Assembly (NCBI GenBank): GCA_949361645.1
Contig: OX442428.1
Location: 815,384-879,383 of the forward strand
Source of the DNA: Spongilla lacustris
Lineage: Eukaryota; Porifera; Demospongiae; Spongillida; Spongillidae
Direction of reading: 5' to 3'
Length of the DNA stretch: 64,000 nucleotides
A program made the position numbers and the translations under genes. Each line of letters opens with the position of its first letter. Position 1 is the first letter of the stretch. The notes beneath the pieces are model-generated. The model had not been told where the DNA came from and made no database searches. It saw only the letters and a program-made list of their open reading frames with translations. Below, in pieces: positions 25,307 through 57,266 of this stretch.

Positions 25307-25989
25307 TGCCGCATTTTGTTATCAAAATTCTACGCGCCCCCGATCGTGGCTCATTACATACACGGCGTCAGAAAATCAGCAGAATTACGTGTTTGTTTAG
25401 ATATGAAATGAAATACCAGTTATATCATAATATGCGTCATTAATTCTTGTTGTACTAGCGTGGGTTGCGCGTACGTGCACAAAAACGTGCCTGTGGCAGT
25501 GCGTGTACTAAAATTCCAAATGCTGGCTGTGCGGATCGCTTGCCTGTTGGCGGCAGTGATATGTGCGGTGGAAAGCCGGCGACCCGTCATCCGCGCGGCT
25601 CCTACTGCAATCAAGACGGGGAACCACGTGGTCGTACTAAGAAGGAACACCACGGCGGACGCACTGCACCACTTTTTGGCAAGGGCGGCGAAACTTTCAG
25701 ATGACGCGACAGTCCACAGATATGTCGAGACAGTGGCAAAGGCGTTCACGATAAAGCTCTCTCCGTATAGTCTTGAAGTGGTTAGTTGGTCTCTTGATAA
25801 TTAAATTCCTGTTATGATACGTGTCTCTCCCAGTTGCGTACCTGGCCCGAAGTGGACTACATCGAAGAGGAACACATGGCATCCGGTACCCAGAGCACCC
25901 AAATACCTTGGCATCTGGATCGCATTGACCAGAGATCCCGCACCCTCGACTATATCTACCAGCCCATAGCAACCGGCGCAGGAGTGGAC

Positions 25990-28046
25990 CACGGCTGTTT
26001 CAGGCCCATTCAACGTTGGACAATAAGACCTACGCCCTGAAATATTGAAACGATTACATCATCAAACATGACCTCAACAAGGACTTTGTATCTTCGAGCT
26101 ATATAAGGACTGCACTTGTAGTCCCGCCATTTAAAAGCCATTTTAGCGTACACATACCATTTTTCTATCCTTCGTGTGAATTGCAAGGCACAACTCTGTA
26201 CCGTCTGTTAGCTATAGCGCTCGCCACGAGAGTACCGCGATTAGATATCCTTCACAAAGATCGGAACACTAGACTACCGCCAATTTTCCTGGATGAAAAC
26301 AAGACGTGGGTAAATGGGGGAGAGCGGAGGCTACCTTCAAAGCCAAACAACTAAGTGCGGCCTGCAGAAATGACAGCGCTACAAGTCATCAAACATAGGT
26401 GATTTGACTCATTTTATAAGTGATTTTTCATACCATGTATAGCATAGGTGATACATATTTGGGTCTTTTTGTTACTACTGGTATTGCTGCGATATTTTGT
26501 GATATTTCTACATTACACACTGGTAATACTGCAACTTTTCCTGTATTGATGCATATGTCCTTGGCTGCCGGTGCATTGAATTTGACATGTATATGGATTT
26601 GCTCCTTGTTTTCCAAGGAGACCAAATCCAACATACCACTTATGTACCCAAGCAACATTGTGGTCGTCAAGAAAATGCATTAATACTGGGATAGTGGCTT
26701 TGGGAAATAACGTGTGTGTGTGTGTGTGTGTGTGTGTGTGTGTGTGTGTGTGTGTGTGTGTGTGTGTGTGTGTGTGTGTGTGTGTGTGTGTGTGTGTGTG
26801 TGTGTGTGTGTGTGTGTGTGTGTGAATGTCTTATGACTTCTCTGTATGTGATGTCATCCTGTCAGTGATAATCATGTGCACATGCTCTTCCTTGTGTTGG
26901 ACAGGTTCTAAGGACTTGTTGATGACATGCGTCTCAGGACATCTACCATCTCCTCTCCTCAGTAGGAGATGGTTTTCCTACATGTCCCTGGAACAGGCTG
27001 CAAAATGGATGAATATATTGCCCGAGATGTTCAATCCCAAGGTGGAAGCAGGGTTATGATGCAGCTGTGCTGTGTCATAACAACAGGGACACTGTACCTC
27101 TGCTGACACACTGTGCAGGGGTAGGTTGAGAACGTTCAGGCACAGAGATCTAAAACAGCGGGTAGGGGGTAAATGATGTCAGTGTACTAGCACCACCATC
27201 TTTAGCTGTGTGAATGATATTGGATGGCCTTCCCACTTGCTGAGTGGATATGAAGTGTTCATACCTTATATATGTATGAATTTAAATACATTTTAATTTG
27301 AATGCCATCATATTGGGTCCGGGTGCAAACATCTCACCATGCAAGATTAACTCCTATGTGTTTGCCACTGAAATGCAGTCACACATGGTACAGCTGCCTT
27401 TTAAAGGGAATCCTTGCAGGAGCTACAAAAGCTTTGTGGGTACACCATTGCATCCTCCTCAGTTCAAAATGCCATACCAAACACCTTCTGCAAGGCCTGA
27501 GTATATGCCTCACACTGTTATGTGGTGTCTTTTTAGTTTCCCCTTCAGTCATGCACCCTCTGCAGTGCAACTGACCTTGGTGGTGGTGGGAATCCATTCA
27601 ACCTATACAACTCCGCATCATTATTCATAGAAAACAAGCAGACTGTTTAGGCCGAAAAGTGCCGGCCGCACTTAGTTAATGACATACACCTTTCACCTGA
27701 AGTGTTAACATTGCCTCTATGTCGAATTTAACAGTGGGAAAATTGGCGGCTCGATGCAACTCGCGCTTTTTTAACACATGCTCGAGATGACGTAACGGCG
27801 TATGCTTATGAAAACGAGGCCAGTGTATTATTGGAAAGCGTAGTATTAATAGTTCACATGTGTGTGTTATAGAGAAATGATTGCTGGTACTAATGCATCA
27901 GCGTATAATAGCACCAGGTGTAAGCTTCAAGCAAGCCATGCTGTTAAACATTGCATAGCGATAATGAGGCTATCCGCCATCATTTGTAAATCATATACCG
28001 TAACGCTCTAATTATCAAACTAATTGTCCAGCTCGAAACAGCCGTG
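25990..28046. mobile_element. 2,057-bp TIR element inserted in the copy A catalytic exon
   Basis: The ends are CACGGCTGTTTC and GAAACAGCCGTG, and the target duplication is GGAC (25986-25989 and 28047-28050). Comparison with copies B, C and D defines the insertion exactly. Subterminal inverted pieces CGCCAATTTTCC (about 26278) and GGAAAATTGGCG (about 27738) are also present. The interior has a (TG)n run (26711-26824) and short frames with no transposase I can recognise, so it is probably non-autonomous. Confidence 0.85.
26711..26824. repeat. (TG)n microsatellite
   Basis: About 57 uninterrupted TG units inside the transposon that splits copy A. Confidence 0.97.
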
Positions 28047-55400: not shown

Positions 55401-57266
55401 GCAAGATCCCTCAACACTGGGCCCCAGACCACTGCACCTCCCCAGACAACTGTACGGTCTTCCAGTGCTGGGCCCCAGACCATTACGGGGCCACTCAGCA
55501 CTGTTCCACAGCCCACTACAAGGTTAATCAGCACTGGGCCCCAGACCACTGCAGAGGGTCCCCAGAGCACTCATCTGAGCACTAGAAGTCTGATTTTTCC
55601 AACTACTTTGAATATGGCAAGTACCCAGACCATGGCAGGGACTAGGAATGCTCTTCAAACAGGTCAAGGTTCCCAATCCTTGTCTGTTCGAACTACTGCA
55701 GGTTCCCAGTCCTTATCACTTCAAACCAGTGCAGGTTCCCAGTCCTTATTTCTTCAAACCAGTTCAGGTTCCCAGTCTTTATCTCTTCAAACCAGTGCAG
55801 GTTCCCAGTCCTTATTTCTTCAAACCAGTTCAGGTTCCCAGTCTTTATCTCTTCAAACCAGTGCAGGTTCCCAGTTTCAACTATCAAGCAGTCCCCAGAT
55901 CATGACATTGCTCCACTCATCAAGTGGTCAGAAACATGTCACCAGTACTTTAAACATCTCACTGCCGCTTCAGACCATACCTACACCATCCTTTCAGACC
56001 ACACCCACACCATTACTTCAGACTGCACGCACACCATCCCTTCAGACCACACCCACACTATCCAGTCATACCACACCTGCCACATACCAAACACAGCTCA
56101 AAAGTGTGTCTCAAGGTACGTTGAAGAAATGGTGGGAGTAAGGGGCTTCTTGTGTTGTTAACTTATTGTGGTATCCCCCTACAGTACAGCCACCTGGTAC
56201 TCCCTCCAATGTGGCACAGACTGCTAAGACTTTGGCTCCTTCCTTCAATGTGGTACAGAGTGCTAAGACTTTGGGTACTCCCTCCAATGTGGTACAGACT
56301 GCTAAGACTTTGGCTCCTTCCTCCAATGTGGTACAGACTGCTAAGACTTTGGCTCCTTCCTCCGATGTGGCACAGACTGCTAAGACTTTGGCTCCTTCCT
56401 CCAATGTGGCACAGACTGCTAAGACTTTGGCTCCTTCCTCCAATGTGGTACAGACTGCTAAGACTTTGGCTCCTTCCTCCAATGTGGTACAGAGTGCTAA
56501 GACTTTGGCTCCTTCCTCCAATGTGGTACAGACTGCTAAGACTTTGGCTCCTTCCTCCAATGTGGTACAGAGTGCTAAGACTTTGGCTCCTTCCTCCAAT
56601 GTGGTACAGACTGCTAAGACTTTGGCTCCTTCCTCCAATGTGGTACAGACTGCTAAGACTTTGGCTCCTTCCTCCAATGTGGTACAGACTGCTAAGACTT
56701 TGGCTCCTTCCTCCAATGTGGCACAGACTGCTAAGACTTTGGCTCCTTCCTCCAATGTGGTACAGACTGCTAAGACTTTGGCTCCTTCCTCCAATGTGGT
56801 ACAGACTGCTAAGACTTTGGCTCCTTCCTCCAATGTGGCACAGACTGCTAAGACTTTGGCTCCTTCCTCCAATGTGGTACAGACTGCTAAGACTTTGGCT
56901 CCTTCCTCCAATGTGGTACAGACTGCTAAGACTTTGGCTCCTTCCTCCAATGTGGTACAGACTGCTAAGACTTTGGCTCCTTCCTCCAATGTGGTACAGA
57001 CTGCTAAGACTTTGGCTCCTTCCTCCAATGTGGTACAGACTGCTAAGACTTTGGCTCCTTCCTCCAATGTGGTACAGACTGCTAAGACTTTGGCTCCTTC
57101 CTCCAATGTGGCACAGACTGCTAAGACTTTGGCTCCTTCCTCCAATGTGGCACAGACTGCTAAGACTTTGGCTCCTTCCTTCAATGTGGTACAGACTGCT
57201 AAGACTTTGGCTCCTTCCTTCAATGTGGTACAGCCTACCATGTCTTCAAGTTCTAACAAGATATAA
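52409..57266 (+). CDS. Subtilase array copy D: S8, CUB, BTRD1-like module, long repetitive stalk
   Basis: Exons: 52409-52672, 52756-53698, 53757-53984, 54055-54204, 54294-55181, 55243-56115 and 56185-57266. All phases agree, giving 1,475 residues. I chose the start at 52409 because it gives a good signal peptide (MLRVCVVVCCLLVSAACA); an upstream in-frame ATG at 52358 would bury it. The order is propeptide, S8 domain with a full catalytic set, CUB, one BTRD1-like module, a Ser/Thr/Pro exon with STGPQTTARS and GSQSLSLQTSA repeats, and a last exon of about 28 tandem 12-residue units (SNVVQTAKTLAP). The tail resembles a mucin-like or linear adhesive stalk. It should be secreted, as there is no membrane anchor or GPI signal at the C terminus (ends SSSSNKI). 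The S8 and CUB exons are almost identical to copy C. Confidence 0.88.
56199..57240. repeat. 36-bp coding tandem repeat, about 28 units
   Basis: Units of TCCAATGTGGTACAGACTGC plus TAAGACTTTGGCTCCT. The length is a multiple of three, so all frames stay open, including one on the minus strand. The sense frame is the plus-strand exon of copy D. Unit differences are mostly V/A and T/S changes. Confidence 0.95.

Follow-up and report, generated by a model that had tools for sequence, protein, structure and literature searches.

We analysed a 64,000-nucleotide stretch of the Spongilla lacustris genome (the window; positions 815,384 to 879,383 of contig OX442428.1, or C15:815384-879383 in our coordinates). 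It contains a tandem cluster of genes for subtilase (S8) proteases with a CUB domain, and all but one of these genes also encode one or two C-terminal modules of the BTRD1 repeat family (PF17660), which we call X and Y. Using tblastn against the window and the 28 kb downstream of it (a 92-kb stretch), we identified five S8-CUB genes on the forward strand, A to E. Genes A (25520-31252), B (33200-34938), C (41145-47252), and D (52409-57266) lie inside the window, and gene E lies beyond it (at about C15:893.3-898.9 kb, or 14-20 kb past the window's end). An earlier reading of the window made from its letters alone (the sequence-only reading) had counted four paralogues; there are indeed four in the window, but the fifth starts about 14 kb past its end. 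That reading had also given a module to each of the four. In fact, C has both X and Y, A has only Y, D has only X, and B has neither; gene E has X and Y. Across the whole genome (248.6 Mb in 51 contigs), protein queries found at least six copies of the module, every one of them in this cluster. A sixth S8-CUB gene, whose S8 domain is 80% identical, lies about 750 kb away at C15:90549. Within the 8 kb around it (C15:89500-97499), there was no match to the BTRD1 module or to SRCR, a domain that is found in related proteases (see below).

The features of the cluster are listed in Table 1. The first six exons of gene D are separated by GT-AG introns of 43-83 bp and read through without a stop codon, and, by eye, the exon junctions of the other genes match those of gene D. 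The open frames, the excess of synonymous over nonsynonymous change in the S8 domain (dN < dS), and the relatives in other species confirm that the cluster is real and not due to chance.

Table 1. Features of the S8-CUB cluster inside the window (positions are those of the window).
Feature	Position	Strand	Evidence or remark
Gene A exon 1, hydrophobic start and propeptide region	25520..25780	+	start codon and GT donor by eye
Gene A S8 domain, first piece	25834..25989	+	tblastn, 92% to gene D
Insertion in gene A S8	25990..28046	.	2,057 bp; 12-bp perfect terminal inverted repeats, GGAC duplication
Gene A S8 domain, second piece, catalytic Asp, His, and Ser motifs	28048..28837	+	Pfam, tblastn
Gene A CUB domain, two exons	28892..29309	+	PF00431 E 1.8e-8, 35.1 bits
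Gene A module Y (BTRD1), then stop	30435..31252	+	PF17660 23.6 bits, cut-off 23; splice acceptor
Gene B exon 1	33200..33460	+	tblastn
Gene B S8 domain	33512..34454	+	PF00082 E 1.2e-32
Gene B CUB domain, two exons	34510..34938	+	PF00431 E 3.3e-10, 40.7 bits
Gene C exon 1	41145..41420	+	exon reading
Gene C S8 domain	41477..42419	+	PF00082 E 8.9e-33
Gene C CUB domain, two exons	42475..42922	+	tblastn
Gene C module X (BTRD1)	43071..43967	+	73% to D; PF17660 17.3 bits, E 0.0045, under cut-off
Gene C mucin-like linker, 84-bp tandem repeats	44024..44542	+	
Gene C module Y (BTRD1), then stop	46441..47252	+	PF17660 22.3 bits, slightly under cut-off 23
Gene D exon 1	52409..52672	+	exon reading
Gene D S8 domain	52756..53698	+	PF00082 E 6.9e-34; aqualysin-1 E 4.6e-57
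Gene D CUB domain, two exons	53757..54204	+	tblastn
Gene D module X (BTRD1), copy used for structure model	54288..55181	+	
Gene D mucin-like exon	55243..56115	+	3' end is GT donor by eye
Gene D last exon, about 26 copies of 39-bp repeat (13-amino-acid unit)	56185..57266	+	

Four pieces of the S8 domain score 114-118 bits in Pfam (PF00082 E from 1.2e-32 to 6.9e-34), and the Asp-His-Ser triad and the oxyanion Asn motifs are present in all five genes. The CUB pieces of A and B, which are the two that were scanned, both exceed the cut-off of 21.4 bits for PF00431; those of C and E are 95% identical to D's by tblastn. Thus, the proteinase-K-like S8 and CUB domains of the sequence-only reading are borne out, as are its mucin-like linkers. 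By eye, the proteases have a hydrophobic N-terminus. Three exon-1 pieces, tested as single exons, gave no match to the I9 propeptide profile, which scores 18.3 bits in the relative P0018 and 14.5 bits in the relative P0014 (cut-off 21.2). By profile, then, the I9 propeptide that the sequence-only reading had named is weak. For S8, dN was below dS in all 10 gene pairs, with dS of 0.03-0.09 (for gene A, we used only the piece 3' of an insertion).

The four modules in the window had been placed correctly and likened to BTRD1 and the polyglycine hydrolases, and both points held up in a Pfam search and in structure predictions for two modules. The proposed limits agree with splice sites or stop codons that we read by eye: they are exact for 30435-31252, 43071-43967, and 46441-47252, and the fourth module begins at 54288 instead of 54294. 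The E-values for PF17660 are 4.8e-5, 0.0045, and 1.2e-4 for these three and 5.6e-5 for 54294-55181. Two of the four (23.6 and 23.4 bits) pass the cut-off of 23 bits, and the others score 22.3 and 17.3 bits. In an alignment of modules (13 rows, of which 12 are distinct, as P0012 repeats gene A's Y), PF17660 matches every row at E ≤ 1, with a best E-value of 3.8e-8. (Searches with the PF17660 profile against the whole genome and against 14 control genomes gave no matches at E 0.001, in our genome despite the modules being present; this search is insensitive, and neither result is used as evidence.) Each of the window's modules also has 4-5 Asn-x-Ser/Thr sites, as had been claimed. In PMC8078820, PF17660 is treated as a repeat family without a known structure.

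We modelled one module from the window and one from a relative (P0005). In both models, the secondary structure has five strand-helix-strand-strand repeats, not the four repeats of about 54 residues that had been proposed. Both match the entire N-domain of a polyglycine hydrolase (Fvan-cmp, PDB 7tpu) at about 12% identity, and PMC9912923 describes that domain as built of five repeats. When the five repeats were compared with each other using hhalign, repeats 1 and 2 had a probability of 85% and the other nine of the 10 pairs had at most 15%. Sequence thus shows a clear likeness for this one pair of repeats, and the five-fold count rests on the structure. The module had also been called "bacterial-type," which is true of the family name only: the fold occurs in all kingdoms, although mostly in bacteria, and has no assigned function (PMC9912923), and our scan of prokaryotic genomes gave no relative. 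We considered a recent transfer from bacteria and rejected it, as none of the scan's 15 pattern matches was a relative; this is weak negative evidence, as the scan used two short peptide patterns from a 14-row alignment.

To find relatives, we searched 5.8 billion proteins. A module query gave 12 proteins among 699 candidates, and a query built from the module alignment gave 13 proteins among 7,996 scored; the thirteenth, P0013, is 33% identical. P0001, P0002, P0006, P0011, and P0012 come from one contig of 580,434 bases and seem to be copies from S. lacustris itself. A third query, with CUB and X in the full-length frame, gave nine proteins. One of them, P0014 (Em0005g1535a in EukProt, taken to be from Ephydatia muelleri), has S8, CUB, X, a mucin-like stretch, and Y, and is 46% identical over CUB and X; in its gene model, the second CUB exon and a portion of X are missing. 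With its identical domain order, this annotated protein shows that the architecture is conserved beyond our genome. This relative and the COX1 frame on contig C51, whose 9 TGA codons fit the sponge mitochondrial code with TGA as tryptophan, point to a freshwater-sponge-like animal. Four more proteins from E. muelleri (P0015, P0016, P0017, and P0019) have S8 and 6-9 SRCR stretches instead of BTRD1, and three of these records also have a CUB call. By eye, these four records are probably two loci that were each annotated twice. P0018 has S8 and CUB alone, and the other three CUB proteins have no S8 domain listed (two of them carry astacin and EGF-type domains). As P0014 and the S8-SRCR records are both from E. 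muelleri, the tail has been exchanged between BTRD1 and SRCR within one species. When we used P0015 and P0016 as queries against the 92-kb stretch, only their S8 and CUB parts matched, and no SRCR did, so the exchange is seen in E. muelleri and not in this cluster. Judged by eye, P0015 seems to have a membrane span at its C-terminal end, with a short tail.

In the literature that we searched, which excludes most subscription journals, we found no S8-CUB-BTRD1 or S8-CUB-SRCR protein, and Em0005g1535a is not named there. The claim that no animal protease has this order of domains therefore agrees with the literature searched but not with the annotation of P0014. Overall, S8-CUB-BTRD1 is a real and conserved domain combination of sponges, made of known parts and undescribed in the literature searched.

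The genes of the cluster are not all intact. The S8 domain of gene A is split by an insertion at a site that is continuous in the other four genes. The longest stop-to-stop frame in the insertion is 114 amino acids, and it is probably a non-autonomous DNA transposon. Because its S8 domain is interrupted by these 2,057 bp, gene A probably makes no full-length enzyme. When A was compared with B using blastn, the stretch of A that holds the linker and Y (29825-31394) had no counterpart at the junction near 39018 in gene B. In gene D, about 26 nearly perfect 39-bp repeats (56203-57233), which encode a mucin-like sequence, and then a stop codon are found where the last exon of gene E leads into Y. 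Downstream of their CUB exons, genes A and B share a 23-bp minisatellite (29411-29702 and 38556-38884).

To study how the modules diverged, we aligned nine Y modules: those of A, C, and E; P0009, P0005, and P0007, which are from one foreign contig (351,996 bases); and three of the E. muelleri type, namely P0010 and P0008 (which share a contig of 181,568 bases) and P0014, which was grouped with these two by its near-identical core, a choice that leans towards the result. In the core of the alignment (174 columns; residues ~25-195), the identity is 97.1% within species and 85.6% between species. In the end block (the last 76 columns, or about 70 residues), the corresponding values are 55.3% and 57.0%. 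Trees constrained by species are favored by 252 log units for the core, and trees constrained by gene type are favored by 47.7 log units for the end, where the species tree has p = 0.0018 in the approximately unbiased (AU) test; these tests are post hoc, as the limits and the types were drawn after viewing the alignment. The 21 columns at the N-terminus (the N block) do not discriminate (AU 0.70 and 0.30). In sliding windows, which do not use types, the within-species excess drops to around zero at residue 181 in the Y of gene A and stays there, and the first two windows show little excess as well (0.03-0.04). We also labelled the Y modules in a partly independent way: a mucin stretch that shares an open frame with Y marked the E type, the N block marked the A type, and the remaining modules were called C type. 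This labelling has rank 1 of 36 for the end block and rank 5 of 36 for the core. Among the type calls, that of P0005 is the least certain: in the best end-block tree, it stands apart from the other C-type sequences. Judging from these alignments, the ends of Y from different species tend to sort by gene type.

Synonymous divergence within our genome follows the same pattern. Among its Y modules, dS is 0.047-0.101 in the core and 0.82, 1.53, or saturated in the end, where dN is below dS wherever it can be measured. For X, C and D differ with a dS of 0.04-0.32 over about the first 118 residues and of 1.0 to saturated over the rest; gene E's X, compared at the nucleotide level only, behaves like D's. 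The simplest account of these sequences is that the genes are old duplicates in which gene conversion homogenised S8, CUB, and the module core but not the module end. In the coordinates of the model, the end of Y covers the final strands of repeat 4 and the whole of repeat 5. The N block, which is diverged between A and C/E, corresponds to the first strand and helix of repeat 1 and would adjoin repeat 5 in a closed barrel.

We propose, with somewhat better than even confidence, that these genes encode a secreted S8A protease that is aimed by exchangeable C-terminal recognition modules, with its specificity in the last repeat. The enzyme would be a proteinase-K-like serine protease that is made as a zymogen and is probably secreted. 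The protease and CUB domains would form a near-constant head, and the C-terminal part would be an exchangeable targeting tail: one or two barrels on mucin-like, Ser/Thr-rich stalks, or SRCR arrays in the E. muelleri relatives. The barrel may hold the protease on its target (a protein, a glycan, or a cell surface) so that cleavage is local, and the last repeat may set which target is bound. Our data show the domains, the fold, the order of the genes and its match in E. muelleri, and a module whose core is homogenised and whose end is not; we infer that the enzyme is secreted and activated from a zymogen, that the barrel binds, and that the last repeat chooses the target. Our main reason to view the barrel as a binding module is its exchange with SRCR arrays, and our main reason to place specificity at its end is that the end is unconverted yet still constrained. 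The sequence-only reading had offered a matrix-anchored or a substrate-targeted enzyme. The former is not borne out: A, C, and E stop directly after Y, and we saw no anchor by eye; a substrate-targeting role would be in line with both the SRCR-bearing relatives and the unhomogenised module end. A more specific version, which we consider rather speculative, is that the barrel is a variable recognition module in which conversion keeps the protease, CUB, and core uniform within each species while selection shelters the last repeat, so that each copy has its own target. In gene A, the sheltered sector may also take in the N-terminal edge that adjoins the last repeat.

Several observations weigh against these proposals. 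The ratio dN/dS for S8 is rather high (0.34-0.81). With A interrupted, B without a module, and D without Y, the tail could be dispensable or the cluster could be decaying. The Foldseek template modelling (TM) score to 7tpu is 0.46 for both structures, and of the five models made for each, only the best is good, with a predicted local distance difference test (pLDDT) score of 60.4 for the window's module (the others have 38-43) and 77.2 for P0005 (the others have 49-63). The N block is not steadily variable, as it is near-identical between C and E (dN 0.018, dS 0.154), and so it could belong to a variable sector at most in gene A. The limits of the blocks and the types of Y were initially set by eye. 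Also, the end could remain unconverted merely because it is too different for conversion.

This last point leads to an explanation that we think is unlikely: the barrel would be a passive spacer or a folding aid with no binding specificity, and the pattern of core and end would reflect the history of gene conversion alone. Conversion does stop by itself at diverged sequence, the module is lost in B and Y is lost in D, and chaperone activity is among the possible roles for the fold that are given in PMC9912923. However, dN is below dS in the end block where it is measurable, and in the end block, sequences of one gene type from different species cluster together, with a labelling that ranks 1 of 36. 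We see it as possible, but doubtful, that the proteases act in innate defence or the sensing of symbionts, with a tail that recognises microbes, as SRCR proteins may do, and a protease that cuts microbial or host surface proteins on contact. SRCR arrays do occupy the module's place in the E. muelleri relatives, and the tandem duplicates have diverged module ends, but SRCR domains serve in adhesion as well. PMC7882143 reports changes in SRCR/dmbt1-like genes of E. muelleri upon algal symbiosis, but the passages on these changes do not name the S8-CUB family.

A protease of the skeleton or matrix, whose tail anchors it to spongin, collagen, or chitin and which matures or remodels the matrix, also seems improbable to us. 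The skeletal matrix proteomes of Sycon and Vaceletia do contain subtilisin-like proteases (PMC12419799), but the text of that article, as far as it was available, does not say that these have CUB or BTRD1 (the word "CUB" is absent from it), and no anchor is apparent after Y in A, C, or E. Finally, a contaminant or an assembly artefact might be suspected because the fold is mostly bacterial (PMC9912923). We consider this extremely unlikely: the cluster is on an 8.6-Mb contig, gene D has introns of 43-83 bp, CUB domains are present, all six module copies that we found (there are at least six) are in one cluster, and an annotated relative from E. muelleri has the same order.

If the more specific version, with a variable recognition module, is correct, then early-branching animals have a diversified recognition system that is linked to proteases, and a fold that is found in all kingdoms with no assigned function would gain one. 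In these tandem paralogues, the barrel accompanies an unrelated protease and takes the position that SRCR arrays have in the related enzymes. The near-identical cores with different last repeats are a natural experiment on what the fold does and on which part of it sets specificity. As the barrel has no assigned function and its natural variation is testable, the cluster is of more interest than an ordinary cluster of paralogues.

Elsewhere in the window, two frames that neighbour the cluster look like ordinary animal genes, with DEAD helicase and TPR pieces. A TPR-containing frame at 20853-22049 starts with a Lys/Pro/Ser-rich region and presumably resembles aspartyl/asparaginyl beta-hydroxylase. 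On the reverse strand, at 61372-63972, a reverse transcriptase (PF00078 E 6.2e-16) is near a tyrosine-recombinase-like frame (PF00589 E 3.2e-4, under the cut-off); this looks like a DIRS-type retroelement. At 16065-17200, long open frames on both strands lie over a short repeat array.

Among known S8A enzymes, the gene D protease matches aqualysin-1 (4dzt, E 4.6e-57), PCSK9 (5vla, E 3.4e-50), and proteinase K (1ic6, E 1.2e-34); to our knowledge, none of these carries a CUB domain or a BTRD1 barrel. The fungal polyglycine hydrolases, such as Fvan-cmp, are secreted proteases, as the sponge proteins probably are, and share with them a five-repeat barrel of about 250 residues (the N-domain). In those enzymes, the barrel precedes a beta-lactamase-like serine protease, whereas in the sponge proteins it follows a subtilase and a CUB domain and is present in one or two copies. 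Because their catalytic domain is PF00082 and because A, C, and E stop right after Y, the sponge proteins are not polyglycine hydrolases. Em0005g1535a shares the S8-CUB-X-mucin-Y order and differs in being from another species, and the S8-SRCR records from E. muelleri share the protease head but have SRCR stretches in place of BTRD1.

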